A stretch of DNA of 64,000 bases from Streptomyces mirabilis (GTDB lineage: Bacteria; Actinomycetota; Actinomycetes; Streptomycetales; Streptomycetaceae), in the NCBI RefSeq assembly GCF_039503195.1, contig NZ_JBCJKP010000001.1, positions 496,001-560,000 on the forward strand, written 5' to 3'. Both the position numbers and the translations under genes were made by a program. The notes beneath the pieces are model-generated. The model did no database searches, had not been told where the DNA came from, and saw nothing but the letters and a program-made list of their open reading frames with translations. The stretch's first letter is position 1. Each line of letters opens with the position of its first letter. Of the stretch, positions 30,907 to 53,438 are shown piece by piece.

Positions 30907-31644
30907 GTGATGATTTCACCGATCGCCCTGGCGCAGTGCCCGCTGCGGCCGGCACTCCGTCTTTACACAGAGGATCTTGGGCCGCGCCTGTTCCAACTCG
31001 CGGTGCCCGCGCTCCACGCCCGCTTTCCCGCCATCCGGCTGGCCCCGCAACCGATGACGACTACCGCCCAGTTGTCCGAGCTCAGTGACCGCCGTCTCGA
31101 CCTCGGCTTCTGCTGGACCGCCCAGCACCCTCCCGAGCTGGCCTCTCTGCTGGTGGCCCGCGCACCGCTCGTGGTCGCACTCGCCGCCGGTCATCCCCTC
31201 GCGGCCCCGGACACGATCGACCCCGTCCAGCTGTCCCACCAACCCCTTGTCATCGTCGAGCGCGAGGTCAACCCCTGGCTGCACGATCACTTGGTCAGCC
31301 AGCTCGAGTCCCGCGGTGCCACGGTGACCGTCCACCGCGAGATCTCCAGCCTCGACCGGCTCCTCCCCATGGTGCTCACCGGCTCGGCCATCGGCCTCAC
31401 CATCACCAGCGCAGCCGCGGCAAGGCCCTTCGCGGGAATCGTCTACCGCCCCTTCACCGACCCGAGCTCCTACGCCGACCACCGCATCGTCTGGCGCCGC
31501 GACAACACCGACCCCGCCGTCACCGCGCTCGTCGACATCGTCCGCGAGCTGCGCGACACAGCGGCCTTCCTCCCGCCCGAAGTCCCCCACGCATCCGACA
31601 TGCCACACCGCGGCAGTACCACCGGCGGCGTGAGGCCGGACTGA
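30907..31644 (+). pseudogene. LysR regulator lacking its DNA-binding domain
   Basis: A 245-codon frame consisting only of the LysR substrate-binding domain. It begins near RLYTEDLGPRLFQLAVPALH, with the two-lobed alpha/beta pattern (LDLGFCWTAQHPPELASLLV and GSAIGLTITSAAAARPFAGI). The N-terminal winged helix of about 60 residues is absent, and ISAs1 sequence lies immediately upstream. It is either a dead regulator or an orphan ligand-binding protein if a new start is used. No convincing start with a ribosome site was found. Confidence 0.65.
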
Positions 31645-31704
31645 CCGAATGCGGTGGCGGCGGCAACGACTCGCCGGTTCCCGGCAGCCCCAAAGCTGCT
31701 GAAA

Positions 31705-31745
31705 ATGAGGGGCCGGTACGCGGGTTGCGCGTACCGGCCCCTCAT
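31705..31745. terminator. Perfect 17-base-pair hairpin
   Basis: ATGAGGGGCCGGTACGC and its exact complement flank a 7-base loop (GGGTTGC). It sits between convergent genes, the LysR remnant and the surface-protein gene, and has A-rich sequence on the left. It is the strongest terminator candidate in the window. Confidence 0.8.
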
Positions 31746-31766
31746 GTGTGTTCATCCGCCGCGAGG

Positions 31767-34046
31767 CTACTCCTGGGCGGTCTTGCGGCGGCGCATCCAC
31801 CACACGAGCGCCCCACCGGCCACGGCGAGGGCGGCGGCGATGCCCGAGATCAGGCCGATCGGGGAGTCGTTGCCGGTGTGCGCGAGGTCACCGCCCGGCT
31901 CGCTGGGTGCGGGCGTGGCGGGTGGCGGGGTGCGCGTGCTTCCGCCGCCTCCGGCGCTGTGGGTCGGGGTGGGGGTCGGCTTACCCGTGTGCGTCGGTGT
32001 CGGGGTCGGCGTGGGTGTGGGTGTGGAGGTGCCGGTGTCGTCGGCGGCCGTGTTCGCGCCGAGGAGGACCCGTCCCGTCATGTCGGTGTTGTCGGTGAGG
32101 GTCTTCACGCTGGTCTGCGCCTGTCGGGGCAGGTAGCGGTGCTGGGCGGTGAAGCGTGCCTTGCTGACGTTGTGCTTGGGCTGCTTGGACAGGTCGACGC
32201 CGCCCACGAGGTAGACCTGGACGGTGCCGTTCGCAGGAATCTTGTACTCGAACTCGCCGTGGGTGTAGATGTACCGGTACTTGTTGAACAGGGCCTCGCG
32301 GGTCCAGTTCTGGTTGGGCGCGCGCAGCGGCCAGCGGGAGACGTCACCACTGTTGATGATCTTGTGGTAGTCGGTGGGCGCCTTGGCGTCCTGCTGGCGA
32401 ATGTACTCGGCCGCGACGCGGGCGGTGTAGACGCGCCGCAGGTCGGCGTACTGGGGTGCGGTGTTGATGGTCTTCTCCACCGCGGGGACGATCATCTGGT
32501 CGATGACGCGCTGTGCCGCCTTGGTCTCGGCCTCGTTCGGGGTGCAGATCGGCGTGCCAGGGCCGGGAGTGATCGTGGTCTGCGCGGTCGACTTCAGACG
32601 CAGCGGAGTGTCAAGGATGTAGATGCCGCCGTCCTGCTCGCGGACCTGCGCGGTCTTCGGCTCGATCCAGTTGCGCAGGCCGGGCATGCACGGGTAGCCG
32701 TTCTGCTTGGGCAGGGCCGCCCAATAGCGTTTGCCGAGGTCGGTATCGGGGTCCATGGCCTTGTAGAAGTCGTGCTTCATCTGGAGGTCTGCTTCCAGGA
32801 GCACGCGGCCGGCGTCGGTCTTGCCGAACTTGGCGTCCATGATGCGGTCCGGCTCGTCCGGGTTGAGGTTGACCCAGAACTTGTCGGGGCTCAGGGCGAG
32901 CCAGGTGAAGAACGCGTCCGAGATGAGCTGGGCCTTGGCCTTGCCTCCCCATCCGGACTTCTCGGTGGGGTCTTCGTTCGCGTCGAACGCGAAGTCGACG
33001 CCCTTGCCCTTGACCGGCTTGCCGATGTACTTCAGGTCCAGGGTGGAGAAGTCGACGCCGCCGGGGCCACGGGGCAGACCACCCGGGTTGGCTACGTTCC
33101 TGCGGTTCAGGTATTCCGCCATGTCCTTCGGGGTGGGCCGCGACTCGCGGATCAGGTCGGTGGCGCCGCCGCGGGTGGTGCCGGACTGGCCCAAAGGCTC
33201 CAGCAGACTGCTCGTGGCGCGCTGTCCGCCCTTGGGGGCGAGCTCCACGCGGTCGGAGCGGTAGTTGTACTCGGTGACCCGGTCCCCAGCGATCTGGCGC
33301 ATGTCTCCCAGGAACTTCTTCGCGTCGGCCTTCTGGGGCTCGGCGAAGACGAACTTGGCCCGGCTGTCCTTCCAGTTGGGGTCCTTGGCCCATGCCAGGT
33401 CCTTGGGGATTTCTCTACGGTCCGGGCTGCCGTTGGACTTGATCTCCAGGATCTGCTTAGTGCGCGTGTTGAAGGCGTCGAGCTTGCGCCGGTAGGTCTT
33501 GCCGGTGTCGGGGTCCTTGAACTCGACCTCCTTCTGGCAGATCCAGTCCGGTCCGACCAGCCCGTGATCCTTGATCACCTTCCGTTCGAAGGCCTTGCCG
33601 CGGGGGTCGTTCCCGGAGTTCGTGATGAACTTCGCGTCCCGGTAGTCCTCGAACTTGGGGTATTTGTCCTTCTGTTGGAGCCACCTCCACCAGACCCGGT
33701 CAGGCTGTGTCGCCGGGGCCTTGGTCAGCTGCGACAGTGCGGCTTCCTTGGCGGCGGACGGCGGCCCGAGACCGTCCCACTCCTTGGCAGGGTTGACGTA
33801 CTCGTATTCGTCCCACTGGGACTTCGCGCGGGAGGCGTCGAACTCCGGCAGAGCAACGGTCGGGCTGGTGCTGCTGGGCAGGCCGTACAACTCGTCACAG
33901 CGCTTGCCCGGGTCCAGCGGCTTCGGTGCAGCGGTCGCCAAGGTGATTCCGGGAAGCCCGGTGAGGGCCATGACCGAAGCGCACGCGAGTGCGACGGCCG
34001 ACCGGCGCAGCGCACGCAACCGCCGGTTGCGTATGGGTTTTGGCAC
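31767..34046 (-). CDS. Sortase-anchored surface protein with a PD-(D/E)XK-like motif
   Basis: A 759-residue exported protein. Residues 1-40 are a signal peptide (VALACASVMALTGLPG, cleavage near TAAP). Residues 145-235 look like a restriction-endonuclease fold: GKAFERKV with Glu154, KLDAFN with Asp190, and ILEIKSN with Glu201 and Lys203, the spacing of a PD-(D/E)XK site. Residues 380-470 hold FWVNLNPDEPDRIMDAKFGK and TDAGRVLLEADLQMK, a conserved motif I cannot name. A Thr-Pro-rich stalk covers about 670-720. LAHTG at 721-725, a hydrophobic segment and RRRK form a class E sortase signal. It is predicted to sit on peptidoglycan. Nuclease activity is inferred only. Confidence 0.82.
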   Translation of the reverse strand: MPKPIRNRRLRALRRSAVALACASVMALTGLPGITLATAAPKPLDPGKRCDELYGLPSSTSPTVALPEFDASRAKSQWDEYEYVNPAKEWDGLGPPSAAKEAALSQLTKAPATQPDRVWWRWLQQKDKYPKFEDYRDAKFITNSGNDPRGKAFERKVIKDHGLVGPDWICQKEVEFKDPDTGKTYRRKLDAFNTRTKQILEIKSNGSPDRREIPKDLAWAKDPNWKDSRAKFVFAEPQKADAKKFLGDMRQIAGDRVTEYNYRSDRVELAPKGGQRATSSLLEPLGQSGTTRGGATDLIRESRPTPKDMAEYLNRRNVANPGGLPRGPGGVDFSTLDLKYIGKPVKGKGVDFAFDANEDPTEKSGWGGKAKAQLISDAFFTWLALSPDKFWVNLNPDEPDRIMDAKFGKTDAGRVLLEADLQMKHDFYKAMDPDTDLGKRYWAALPKQNGYPCMPGLRNWIEPKTAQVREQDGGIYILDTPLRLKSTAQTTITPGPGTPICTPNEAETKAAQRVIDQMIVPAVEKTINTAPQYADLRRVYTARVAAEYIRQQDAKAPTDYHKIINSGDVSRWPLRAPNQNWTREALFNKYRYIYTHGEFEYKIPANGTVQVYLVGGVDLSKQPKHNVSKARFTAQHRYLPRQAQTSVKTLTDNTDMTGRVLLGANTAADDTGTSTPTPTPTPTPTHTGKPTPTPTHSAGGGGSTRTPPPATPAPSEPGGDLAHTGNDSPIGLISGIAAALAVAGGALVWWMRRRKTAQE

Positions 34047-34253
34047 GTGATGTCCCCGTGGGGGCCCAGTAGGGCATGGGGTGTTCGTGGCGCCAGGGGC
34101 CCCCGTGGTCGATGTGGCGCCGACGAACGGAGCTCACGCTAGACACACGCGCGTATCGGCCGTAGCCGATACACGGTTCGACAACCGGGTCAACTCTCCT
34201 TCTCCACAGGACCGTTACATCCGGATCGCGGGCTGCGGCATACGCTCGGCGGC

Positions 34254-34964
34254 ATGAGTCCCGTATCCCCCGGAACGCAGGTGAATCCCCGTCACAGCGG
34301 GCACGCGCATCTGGTCATCGTCCATCCCCCCTTCGCGGCCCCGCTCCGGCCCAACGAGCGTCCGTCTGCCACTGCCCACGACCCGGCGGTGGCCAGCGCT
34401 GCGGTGCTGTCCCTGTCGACCGTCTCAGCGATCCACCACGAGTACGCTCCGTCCCGGCTGGGGCATCCTGGAAGCCCGGCCAAGCGGGAAGAGCTGGACG
34501 GCGTACGCGCGGCCGCGTGGGGCTCCACGGTGAAGATCAGTGACCCGGCGCTTGTCGAAGACGGGGTGATGGCCACTGCTTTGGAGGACGAGTTCCAGGC
34601 GCAGAGGAAGAAGCATCCGGACGCCCGGATCGTCGCTGTCTGCGAACGCGACTTCGGCGCCTCGTACACGAAGATCCTCGTTGCTGTGCCCGGTACCCCG
34701 GATCTGATGGTCGAGGGCTTCGACGAGCTGGAGATCACCGGCGACCCGCGTGCCACGCTGGCCGCTGCGGGGATCGACCTCGACCCGTTGGGTGAGGGAT
34801 ACGACATCAGCGATGAAGGGTTCTTCGACTACGACGGCTTCCTCCATATGCTCACCGGCGGCGCCCTGTCCGTCTACGCGGATGAGGACCGCTTCGAGTC
34901 GGCGTTCGTTGTCGACCGGAGCGAGGAGGGCGAGAACAGCATCTGCGAGGTCTGGTTTCCGTAG
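34254..34964 (+). CDS. Acidic hypothetical protein, DUF6333-like
   Basis: A 236-residue cytosolic protein. The start carries HAHLVIVHPPFAAPLRPNER, the middle VKISDPALVEDGVMATALED, and the C-terminal half is very acidic (DPLGEGYDISDEGFFDYDGF). The HPPF and ISDPAL motifs resemble the Streptomyces family I recall as DUF6333; this is from memory and not checked. The gene is divergent from the surface-protein gene, with 207 bases between the starts, so joint regulation is possible. Whether it acts with that protein is unknown. Confidence 0.65.
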   Translation: MSPVSPGTQVNPRHSGHAHLVIVHPPFAAPLRPNERPSATAHDPAVASAAVLSLSTVSAIHHEYAPSRLGHPGSPAKREELDGVRAAAWGSTVKISDPALVEDGVMATALEDEFQAQRKKHPDARIVAVCERDFGASYTKILVAVPGTPDLMVEGFDELEITGDPRATLAAAGIDLDPLGEGYDISDEGFFDYDGFLHMLTGGALSVYADEDRFESAFVVDRSEEGENSICEVWFP

Positions 34965-35260
34965 CAGGCACCGAGGGTGCGACCACCGGAGGTCTTGCGA
35001 CGGAGGACAGAGCCCCGCCGGAGCACCGTCGTCCACGCACTCACGCGCGCCTCCGACGGACCCGTCTCGCCCGACAGCGGACGGGACGGAACCGCCCACG
35101 GCCTCGGCGAAGTCCACCGGCCGCAGCTGTCATTCCGCGTGTTCTTGGAGCGCTACCGGAGCTGGCTCGCCTCTGCCCCAGCGCGAGCTGATCACCTGGT
35201 CTCGGGCGTCTTCGCCGCCACCGCGCTCAACATCATCCGCATCGACCGATGGCTGACTGC
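34965..35260. other. Possible transposase tail
   Basis: The + frame near 35130-35260 reads ARADHLVSGVFAATALNIIR, which resembles the C-terminal end of transposases of the IS1182/IS5 type. It directly precedes the first TnpB-associated repeat. Too short to be certain. Confidence 0.35.
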
Positions 35261-35856
35261 GGCTGCGACGCGGAGTGTTGCGGTGCCGGGTGGGGTGGGC
35301 GCGGAGCGCCCGCAGGGCTGCCGGTGGAGCCGGGGAATGCTTCGTCCGGGCCGGTGTTGCCCGCACGACGGCGGTGCAGCAGTGCGGAAGTGTTCGGGTG
35401 GGGCTGGGTTGGGCTGATGGGGTCGGGGTTGTCGGTGGTGGGTGTTGGCGTCCGGATCATGCAGCTTCGGTATGCCTTCCGTCTCGACCCGGGGTCCGGT
35501 CAGCGCGTTGCGCTGGCGCGGGCGTTGGGGTGTGCGCGGGTGGTGTACAACGACGCGGTCGCCGCCCGGGAGCGGGCCCGGCGGGAGGGTGCTGCGTTTC
35601 CGAGTGCGGGCGTGCTGTCGAAGACGCTGATCACCGAGGCGAAGCGGAGCCCCGGGCGGCAGTGGCTGTCCGAGGTGTCGGCAGTCATCCTGCAGCAGGC
35701 GCTGCGGGACGTGGAGCGTGCCTACTCCAACTTCTTCGCCTCGGTGAAGGGCGTCCGGAAGGGGGCACGGGTGGGGGCGCCGCGCTTCAGGTCGAAGCGG
35801 GATGCCCGACAGGCGATCCGGTTCACCGCGAAAGATCACCGAGGCGGGGCGGCTGC
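35261..35856 (+). repeat. Copy 1 of a 0.6 kb duplicated TnpB-containing segment
   Basis: This segment is nearly identical to 52382-52980. It includes about 190 bases upstream of tnpB and the first third of the gene. The right end is lost at about 35856, where transporter-like sequence begins. It has an 11-base deletion relative to copy 2 at about 35831. Confidence 0.85.
35459..35856 (+). pseudogene. Truncated TnpB (IS200/IS605-IS607 type), copy 1
   Basis: The frame starts MQLRYAFRLDPGSGQRVALA and continues with ALGCARVVYNDAVAARERAR, the TnpB N-terminal helix-turn-helix domain, to about residue 125 (ARQAIRFTAK). An 11-base deletion then shifts the frame, and the gene ends abruptly. The RuvC catalytic residues and the zinc ribbon are absent, so it is inactive. 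Confidence 0.88.
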
Positions 35857-36048
35857 GTCACCGCCCTCGTGTCCGCCGTGCTGCCCGTGGCCGTGGGCCT
35901 GCTGCACGGCGAGCACCTGGGCGCCGCCGGGCTGATGGGCCTGCCGCTCGCGCTGGTCGCGGTGACCCTGGTCAGCGCCGGGTCGGCACGCCCGTCGCGC
36001 ACCGCGCTGCTGTCTGCCTTCGGCGCGGGTGGCAGCATCCGGCCGTAG
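35857..36048 (+). pseudogene. Fragment of an EamA/DMT-family transporter
   Basis: The + frame reads ALVSAVLPVAVGLLHGEHLG, then MGLPLALVAVTLVSAGSARP and a TAG. This is two membrane segments of a drug/metabolite transporter, joined directly to the truncated tnpB. Confidence 0.6.
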
Positions 36049-37972: not shown

Positions 37973-39133
37973 ATGACCCTGCTCACCGTCCACCAGGACA
38001 ACCACCCCACCCCCGCCACCACGGCAACGGGAACAGGAACGGCAACGGGAACGGGAACGGCAACAGGCCCCCACCCGGCAGCAGAACCAGACCCCGCCAC
38101 GCAGACCAGCACGGAAACAAAAACGGGCACCGACACCCGCGCAAAAACACCCGTCGACCCCGCCCGCATGCCCCGCCTCACCACCACCGTCCCCCGCGAA
38201 TACGTCCACCGCTCCACCCTCGCCGAGGTCTTCCTCACCGGCTGCGAACAAACCGGCAACACCCACTACACCCTCACCGCCCAATGGCCCCGCGCCCACA
38301 CCTTCTTCACCACCCCCGACGGCACCCACCACCACCCCCTCCAAGCCGCAGAAACCATCCGCCAAACCGGCATCTACCTCGCCCACGCCGAACTCGGCAT
38401 CCCCCTCGGCCACCACTTCCTCATGCGCAACCTCCACCTCACCACCCACCCCCAACACCTCACCATCGGCCCCACCCCCACCGACCTCACCCTCACCGCC
38501 ACCTACACCCCCCACCACCCCCACACCAAACGCCCCACCGACTTCACCATGCACATCACCATCACCCGCAACGGCCACCCCACCGCCACCGGCACCGGCC
38601 GCTTCACCTGCCTCACCCCCACCACCTACCAACGCCTCCGCCACCCCCACACCACCACCCCCACAAACACCACAAGCACCACAAGCACCACAGCAGCAGG
38701 CACCACCGCGATCGGCACCAGCACCGCCGGCACCCAACACCAACCCCCCAACCCCCCACCCACCCACTACGGACGCACCCTCCCCCACGACATCGTCCTC
38801 ACCCCCACCCCCCACCCCCACACCTGGCAACTCACCCCCAACCCCCACCACCCCATCCTCTTCGACCACACCACCGACCACATCCCCGGCATGGTCCTCC
38901 TCGAAGCCGCCCACCAAGCCGCCACCGCCCACACCCACCCCACCCCCACAACCCACCCCACCCACCCCACCACCCTCCACGCCACCTTCCACCACTACAC
39001 CGAACACCACACCCCCACCTACATCACCACCCACACCAACACCAACGACCAAACCCCCACCACCCACATCACCGCACACCAAAACAACACCACCGTCTTC
39101 ACCGCACAACTCACCACCCACACCCCCACCTGA
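37973..39133 (+). CDS. AfsA/ScbA-family gamma-butyrolactone biosynthesis protein
   Basis: A 386-residue member of the A-factor synthase family, which condenses a beta-keto acyl chain with dihydroxyacetone phosphate to start gamma-butyrolactone signals. It has two hot-dog repeats: the first has YVHRSTLAEVFLTG and LQAAETIRQTGIYLAHAELG; the second has FDHTTDHIPGMVLLEAAHQA, each with the conserved acidic residue. A 45-residue N-terminal tail contains a six-base repeat giving Gly-Thr-Ala-Thr. Codon use is extreme, nearly always ending in C, with almost no G on this strand. An ARE lies upstream. No receptor gene is adjacent, which is unusual because afsA-like genes are often beside one. Confidence 0.88.
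   Translation: MTLLTVHQDNHPTPATTATGTGTATGTGTATGPHPAAEPDPATQTSTETKTGTDTRAKTPVDPARMPRLTTTVPREYVHRSTLAEVFLTGCEQTGNTHYTLTAQWPRAHTFFTTPDGTHHHPLQAAETIRQTGIYLAHAELGIPLGHHFLMRNLHLTTHPQHLTIGPTPTDLTLTATYTPHHPHTKRPTDFTMHITITRNGHPTATGTGRFTCLTPTTYQRLRHPHTTTPTNTTSTTSTTAAGTTAIGTSTAGTQHQPPNPPPTHYGRTLPHDIVLTPTPHPHTWQLTPNPHHPILFDHTTDHIPGMVLLEAAHQAATAHTHPTPTTHPTHPTTLHATFHHYTEHHTPTYITTHTNTNDQTPTTHITAHQNNTTVFTAQLTTHTPT
38021..38067 (+). repeat. Six-base tandem repeat in the AfsA N-terminal tail
   Basis: Degenerate ACGGCA/ACGGGA/ACAGGA units are repeated about eight times, encoding Thr-Ala/Thr-Gly pairs. The number of units may vary between strains. Confidence 0.7.
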
Positions 39134-52381: not shown

Positions 52382-52980
52382 GGCCGCGACGTGGAGTGTT
52401 GCGGTGCCGGGCGGGGTGGGCGCGGAGCGCCCGCAGGGCTGCCCGGCGGAGCCGGGGAATGCTTCCTCCGGGCCCATGTTGCCCGTATGACAGCGGTGCG
52501 GAACTGTTCGGGCGAGGCTGGGCTGGCTGATCGGGTCGGGGTTGTCGGTGGTGGGTGTTGGCGTCCGGATCATGCAGCTTCGGTATGCCTTCCGCCTCGA
52601 CCCGGAGCCCGGTCAGCGCGTTGCGCTGGCGCGGGCGTTGGGGTGCGCGCGGGTGGTGTACAACGACGCGGTCGCCGCCCGGGAGCGGGCCCGGCGGGAG
52701 GGTGCTGCGTTTCCGAGCGCGGGCGCGCTGTCGAAGACGCTGATCACCGAGGCGAAGCGGAGCCCCGGGCGGCAGTGGCTGTCCGAGGTGTCGGCAGTCA
52801 TCCTGCAGCACGCGCTGCGGGACGTGGAGCGCGCCTACACCAACTTCTTTTCCTCTCTGAAAGGAGCCCGCCAGGGGGCACGGGTAGGGGCGCCGCGCTT
52901 CAAGTCGAAGCGGGATGCCCGCCAGGCGATCCGGTTCACCGCGAACGCCCGATGGAAGATCACCGAGGCGGGGCGGCTGC
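52382..52980 (+). repeat. Copy 2 of the 0.6 kb TnpB-containing segment
   Basis: Nearly identical to 35261-35856. Both copies share about 190 bases of upstream sequence, including the run GTGTTGCGGTGCCGGG, and the start of tnpB. Copy 2 extends further into the gene. Confidence 0.85.
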
Positions 52981-53438
52981 TCCTGCCGAAAATCGGCGAG
53001 GTGAGGGTGCGCTGGTCGCGCAGGCTCCCGTCGGCCCCGTCGAGCGTGACGGTGATCCGGGACGCGGCCGGCCGGTACTTCGCCTCCTTCGTGATCGAGA
53101 CCGACCCGGACGCCGACCTGGCGCGGATGCCGGATGCCGACGGTCTGCCGTCTGTGGGGATCGACTTGGGCCTGACCCATTTCGCGGTCCTGTCGGACGG
53201 GACGAAGATCGACAGCCCGCGGTTTCTGCGCCGGGCGGAGAAGAAGCTGAAGAAGGCGCAGCGGGAGTTGTCCCGCAAGCAGAAGAGGTCGAAGAACCGG
53301 GAGAAGGCCCGTCTGAAGGTGGCCCGCGCGCACGCGCAGGTCGCCGACGCCCGCCGCGAATCGGTCGGTTCGTGGTTCGGTTCGTGGTTCGTCTGGACAC
53401 ACATCACCGCTGTCCCGGGCGAGAGGCGCCTTCGGTAG
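52572..53438 (+). pseudogene. Truncated TnpB (IS200/IS605-IS607 type), copy 2
   Basis: A 288-codon frame starting MQLRYAFRLDPEPGQRVALA. The N-terminal domain and the first RuvC motif (SVGIDLGLTHFAVLSDG) are present, followed by the Lys-rich bridge ELSRKQKRSKNREKARLKVA. TnpB sequence stops near VADARRE, and the rest (WFGSWFVWTHITAV) is unrelated. The RuvC-II and -III residues and zinc finger are missing, so it is inactive as an RNA-guided nuclease. It ends where the element right end and its guide RNA would be. Confidence 0.88.

Follow-up and report, generated by a model that had tools for sequence, protein, structure and literature searches.

The window, a 64,000-nucleotide stretch of the 11.1-Mb, two-contig genome of Streptomyces mirabilis, carries a gene pair that probably encodes a polymorphic toxin displayed at the cell surface, with its toxin domain at the N-terminus (P0001), and the matching immunity protein (P0002). 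In P0001, a nuclease-like N-terminal domain (N-domain) precedes a conserved central chassis domain (CEN) and a sortase anchor, and P0002 belongs to the family DUF6333, which alternates at related loci with a second family, P2. The partner followed the toxin domain rather than the carrier, was acidic beside a mostly basic domain, lacked an export signal in P0002, and was exchangeable, which together point to an immunity protein; DUF6333 and P2 are, on sequence grounds, best read as exchangeable immunity proteins. That the CEN chassis also bears other N-domains favours a weapon over a nuclease used for nutrition. We infer toxicity, delivery, release, nuclease activity, and inhibition by DUF6333. 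In wider terms, the chances are about even that Streptomyces has here an antagonism system not described before: the toxin domains (PD-(D/E)XK nuclease, XOO_2897-like deaminase, and one or more further kinds) would be interchangeable and exposed N-terminally on CEN, a new chassis domain fixed by a sortase or to the membrane, sometimes beside PrsW, and the nuclease version would be neutralised by DUF6333 or P2. The original prediction, which proposed from the letters of the window a surface-anchored nuclease-like protein with a divergent acidic partner in a possible contact or defence system, was supported in its interpretation of the gene pair.

Surface protein P0001 and its nuclease-like domain

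Both open reading frames (ORFs) were located at exactly the coordinates given in the original prediction (Table 1). The features that it had named in P0001 were also present, namely, a signal peptide (hydrophobic N-terminal stretch), the residues E154, D190, and E201-x-K203, a second conserved motif (FWVNLNPDEPDRIMDAKFGK/TDAGRVLLEADL), a Thr-Pro stalk, and an LAHTG signal. LAHTG occupies aa 721-725, and a hydrophobic helix and RRRK come after it. The domain order was signal peptide, nuclease-like domain, linker, CEN, Thr-Pro stalk, LAHTG, helix, and basic tail. P0001 was the sole full-length copy in the genome, and the four further genome matches spanned the stalk and anchor only (aa 668 onwards).

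By sequence, P0001 would be an LAXTG-type sortase substrate, with LAxTG, a hydrophobic helix, and a positive tail in a genome with nine sortase-family genes. LAXTG is the signal of class E sortases (PMC5148588; for this and the other papers cited, statements refer to the available part of the text). The LPXTG anchor model TIGR01167 of NCBIfam scored 16.8 on P0001 against a cut-off of 15.9, and NF041528 (strep_LAETG) scored 26.4, under its cut-off of 30. The Pfam scan of P0001 returned 0 families up to E = 1, hence no match to a curated nuclease or toxin family, and none of its three hits in a PDB sequence search (E 0.17 and up) was relevant. Mature P0001 has four cysteines, two in the N-domain (50 and 170) and two in CEN (453 and 501), and these would suit two extracellular disulfides.

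The comparison with relatives was based on a table of 64 CEN genes including that of the window, which comprised 44 nuclease-type genes (a group defined by sequence alone), 17 deaminase-type genes, and 3 others, one of them a remnant (L146). Partial matches (L017-L019), matches to the C-terminal part only (L020-L022), a broken remnant (L085), a locus with no CEN ORF (L147), and a gene from another family (L152) were left out of the table. D190, E201, and K203 were invariant in 44/44 nuclease-type sequences; thus, the active-site arrangement of P0001 is not a matter of chance, and the loss of these residues in homologues, which would have counted against the original prediction, was not observed. 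R187, S204, and D216 were likewise kept in all 44. E154 was kept in 32/44 sequences, with M in 8 and H in 4, and these 12 replacements would suit a surface protein without catalysis that keeps only the fold and acts in binding or development. As the remaining named residues were retained throughout, such a protein is highly improbable.

The D...(D/E)xK signature was placed on predicted strands 183-192 and 197-202, with K203 just after, and the predicted N-domain fits the alpha-beta-beta-beta-alpha-beta core of the PD-(D/E)XK superfamily. The structural matches (VIA list) were topped by EndoMS, Can2, Card1, and NucS and included two CdiA-CT toxins and TseT. The PDB structural matches were weak but agreed with PD-(D/E)XK, and the predicted order of fold elements likewise supported the earlier claim of a nuclease fold. 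On the basis of its residues and model, the N-domain is presumably a PD-(D/E)XK nuclease with a corresponding putative activity. A hydrophobic N-terminal stretch was found by a simple hydropathy rule in 41/44 nuclease-type proteins.

Partner proteins of the nuclease-type genes

P0002, described earlier as DUF6333-like, proved to be a true DUF6333 protein (PF19859, E 2e-49, 168.7 bits against a gathering cut-off of 31.4). It was the only DUF6333 gene found in its genome, and it showed no export signal by eye. A profile scan was conducted within 3 kb of all 64 CEN genes. The co-occurrence of the pair, which the original prediction had left to be checked, extended to all 44 nuclease-type loci, with DUF6333 at 28 and P2 at 16, never both and never neither. 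The partner was always on the 5' side of the toxin gene, directly upstream at most loci and about 1 kb away in L014 and L081. Neither partner was found at the 20 other CEN loci (0/17 deaminase-type and 0/3 others).

Because 16 loci had been fetched through DUF6333 and the partner profiles had been built from 16 and 9 of the same loci, the search with CEN only was taken as the fair sample. In this sample of 199 genomes, a partner accompanied 30/30 nuclease-type genes (17 DUF6333 and 13 P2) versus 0/16 other genes (14 deaminase-type and 2 other). It also contained three fragment matches in two genomes, of which L146 was scanned and had no partner, while L147 was outside the scan. A later independent genome search detected P2 in all 13 of the CEN-only P2 genomes, with one match (G106) running across a stop codon. 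Both families were rare, DUF6333 being present in 22/199 genomes and P2 in 24/199. As the partner was confined to nuclease-type loci of a shared chassis, it appears to depend on the toxin domain rather than on the chassis or its export.

DUF6333 and P2 did not match one another in sequence. The CEN tree required a minimum of 6 changes of partner family, at least 4 of them forced by well-supported branches, and the N-domain tree required 5, with 5 so forced. DUF6333 distances correlated better with those of the nuclease domain (partial r 0.585) than with those of CEN (0.113). The matched parts of the partners were all acidic (pI 4.1-5.3) and the nuclease domains had pI values of 6.8-9.9; among 311 control gene calls, with the partners kept within the control, 35% were equally acidic. 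When three P2 members were searched in Pfam, one weak DUF6278 match under the cut-off was obtained (E 0.0024), and one P2 member compared with NCBIfam gave nothing useful.

DUF6333 and P2 could instead be regulators or chaperones of the surface protein. The partner gene was divergent from the toxin gene here, as it was at each of the 16 P2 loci, and DUF6333 also stood alone in unrelated neighbourhoods (9/28 fetched regions), both of which would suit such a role. However, DUF6333 was co-directional with the toxin gene in 17 of 28 loci and divergent in 11, and two unmatched families alternated only with the nuclease domain and never with the 17 deaminase-type genes. Regulators or chaperones are thus considered unlikely.

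Some observations fit a toxin with its immunity protein less well. Among the 28 fetched DUF6333 regions, 16 had a nuclease-type gene, 9 were solitary, and 3 were fragments or remnants; the gene lists around the 9 orphan DUF6333 genes, inspected by eye, contained no second toxin that was recognised, and solitary genes also fit a general cellular role. Orphan immunity genes are, on the other side, a known pattern. In addition, no recurrent immunity gene was found beside the 17 deaminase-type genes. In one genome (G137), two tandem DUF6333 genes were located upstream of one toxin gene (L061), resembling poly-immunity, with two more copies elsewhere.

Distribution and conservation of the CEN chassis

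The scan of species genomes with P0001 yielded 17 loci, all in Streptomyces, and the plasmid scan yielded six records, all from Streptomyces, three of which matched only from about aa 328 on. The CEN-only query gave at least 49 matches in at least 42/199 Streptomyces genomes; these counts are lower bounds, as scoring covered no more than the 11 best candidates of each genome. The idea that P0001 is an isolated oddity was thereby rejected. In a phylum-wide sample, with the best 5 or fewer candidates per genome scored, at least 4/396 genomes had a CEN match, three from Streptomyces and one from another actinobacterial family. The N-domain of the latter protein (L152) was PD-(D/E)XK-like by eye (RRPDF...EIVEIK) and had no significant Pfam match, and no match was obtained in 250 other genomes of that family. 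Phage records and viral contigs contained no relative at the sensitivity used.

Within the nuclease-type proteins, no other large part was as well conserved as CEN. Against seven divergent relatives, the identity per 30-residue window was 0.51-0.85 over aa 331-630 versus 0.17-0.51 over aa 61-330. The predicted structure of CEN was poor, and its profile had no hit among PDB sequences. The CEN motif may resemble proteins of Omnitrophota and planctomycetes. The CEN tree separated the 44 nuclease-type rows from the deaminase, other, and L152 rows (100/99 support; the root is arbitrary).

Other N-domains, anchors, and PrsW neighbours

By sequence, three kinds of N-domain appear to be carried on one chassis, and the variable domain was N-terminal in all 63 tabulated CEN genes apart from the remnant L146. 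In the deaminase-type sequences, H, S, E, C, and C (HSE...C...C, in keeping with an HxE...C...C zinc motif) were invariant in 17/17, with varied Cys spacing. PF14440 (XOO_2897-deam) matched 7/17 of these N-domains at E up to 1 (best 1.7e-10), and 10/17 had no match; XOO2897 is named among toxin deaminases (PMC3482391). For the deaminase-type set, the PDB sequence search gave only a non-significant APOBEC3G match (E 0.049), and NCBIfam gave nothing useful. L141 and L142 grouped with the deaminase rows; their CEN shared 75% and 77% identity with that of L134, and their N-terminal similarity to L134 was limited to the linker and signal regions. Such dissimilar N-domains on a closely similar chassis indicate domain exchange. 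The N-termini of L141 and L142 represent the third kind of N-domain, for which no family identity was found.

The main rival to a toxin with its immunity protein is a pair resembling barnase and barstar, in which a wall nuclease breaks down nucleic acid outside the cell to gain nutrients, control biofilm, or keep neighbours out, and a cytosolic inhibitor only guards against mis-exported enzyme, with no delivery. The partner coupling fits this pair equally well, an exported Streptomyces enzyme is toxic only when kept in the cytosol (PMC12691689), and wall-anchored nucleases exist in the streptococci S. sanguinis and S. gordonii (SsnA). These share wall anchoring with P0001, but neither an inhibitor gene nor domain exchange was mentioned for them in the available text. 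The deaminase-like domains on the same chassis, partly matching a toxin-listed family, would have no obvious nutritional use, and repeated exchange of the partner family would be more typical of conflict. We therefore regard such a pair as rather improbable, though it is the leading alternative. Streptococcal wall-anchored nucleases have another nuclease fold than the PD-(D/E)XK-like domain. An anti-phage nuclease cutting incoming DNA at the surface, where it could meet injected DNA, was also considered. As a rule, however, phage DNA enters the cell in a shielded form, deaminase-like domains occur on other versions of the chassis, and neither protein had a PADLOC match up to E 0.1, although PADLOC lists described systems only. 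Such a function is very unlikely.

The anchors also differed between the types. LAxTG was present in 42/44 nuclease-type versus 0/17 deaminase-type proteins, and a hydrophobic C-terminal helix was found by a simple rule in 43/44 and 15/17, respectively. By clustering, a PrsW-like protease gene adjoined 6/17 deaminase-type genes (L025, L131, L132, L137, L139, and L145); two of these PrsW-like genes were confirmed by Pfam and one was so annotated. A tblastn search with one PrsW recovered five of the six deaminase-type loci and no nuclease-type locus. Because PrsW adjoins membrane-held versions of the chassis, its position suggests release by cleavage.

Proposed mechanism and comparison with known systems

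In the proposed mechanism, the signal peptide would export the toxin and sortase would fix it to the wall through LAHTG, with the PD-(D/E)XK nuclease domain held at the outer N-terminal end on CEN and the Thr-Pro stalk. When a competitor is touched, the nuclease would enter it and cut nucleic acid, while DUF6333 would remain in the cytosol and block the nuclease in the producer and its kin. At a guess, CEN may serve the release of the N-domain or the crossing of the target wall or membrane. If true, Streptomyces would possess, in addition to antibiotics and umbrella particles, a protein weapon displayed at its surface, polymorphic toxins would be known in an orientation opposite to the usual one, DUF6333 and a second orphan family (P2) would gain a role, and a conserved 316-residue chassis domain with a testable delivery role would be defined.

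CDI toxins use two-partner secretion, have a C-terminal toxin, and occur in Gram-negative bacteria. CdiA-CT/CdiI (4g6u and 4zqu) likewise consists of a toxin and a neighbouring inhibitor and has a similar predicted nuclease fold at modest Z (5.5 and 4.8), but no sequence match to P0001 in the PDB search. Polymorphic toxin systems (Zhang et al. 2012, PMC3482391) have in common with the CEN proteins a conserved carrier, exchangeable toxin domains including restriction-endonuclease-fold and deaminase kinds, and an adjacent small gene. They usually have the toxin domain at the C-terminus, as described in PMC3482391 and PMC13392607; here, the toxin domain is N-terminal and the carrier C-terminal. 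The sortase or membrane anchor is a further difference, and the main text of PMC3482391 contains neither 'LPXTG' nor 'sortase' within its first 300,000 characters. PrsW peptidases are part of some of those systems, whereas the PrsW-like protein here is a separate neighbour and not fused.

Umbrella toxins (PMC11062931) are also polymorphic toxins of Streptomyces, some with an adjacent immunity gene. However, their toxin protein UmbC carries a TAT signal, ALF repeats, and its toxin domain at the C-terminus, and it assembles with UmbA and UmbB into particles that are secreted (PMC11062931); P0001 matched no Pfam family and hence showed no ALF repeat. For Tde5 (PMC13392607), one nuclease family is likewise served by dissimilar immunity proteins, and Tdi5b is a precedent for an immunity protein widespread outside toxin loci. 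Tde5 differs in being a T6SS-associated beta-beta-alpha-metal nuclease with both immunity genes in one locus, while the two families here exclude each other. In the open-licence literature, no paper was found on DUF6333 or on a polymorphic toxin with sortase, Streptomyces, and deaminase. The available text of that literature also contained no description of an N-terminal toxin on a sortase-anchored carrier, which is no proof of its being unpublished.

Locus and neighbouring genes

Table 1. Positions of the gene pair and its features in the window.
Feature	Positions	Strand	Details
P0001	31767..34046	-	759 aa: signal peptide, nuclease-like domain, CEN, stalk, sortase anchor
Signal peptide of P0001	33927..34046	-	aa 1-40, boundary set by eye
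PD-(D/E)XK-like domain of P0001	33237..33914	-	about aa 45-270
Putative active-site codons of P0001	E154 33585-33587, D190 33477-33479, E201-x-K203 33438-33446	-	
CEN (conserved central chassis domain) of P0001	32127..33074	-	aa 325-640, conserved Cys453 and Cys501
LAHTG sortase signal of P0001	31872..31886	-	aa 721-725, then hydrophobic helix and RRRK
Intergenic region between the divergent genes	34047..34253	.	207 bp
P0002 (DUF6333 protein)	34254..34964	+	236 aa, pI 4.6; proposed cytosolic immunity protein or inhibitor

A sigma-70 consensus scan of 31500-35100 identified no promoter-like site. Convergent with the toxin gene, an ORF at 30907-31641(+) had a LysR substrate-binding domain only (PF03466) and no DNA-binding part. 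An apparently partial ORF of the IS605 OrfB (TnpB) type at 35249-35932(+), 0.3-0.5 kb past the DUF6333 gene, matched HTH_OrfB_IS605 only (1.3e-12). Its N-terminus was closely similar to that of another apparently partial TnpB-type ORF at 52542-53435(+), which also matched OrfB_IS605 (9.4e-21). An IS200/IS605 transposase pair was also present near the toxin locus L027. At 3 kb from the gene pair, an AfsA-type A-factor biosynthesis gene was found at 37973-39130(+) (PF03756, 1.7e-38).
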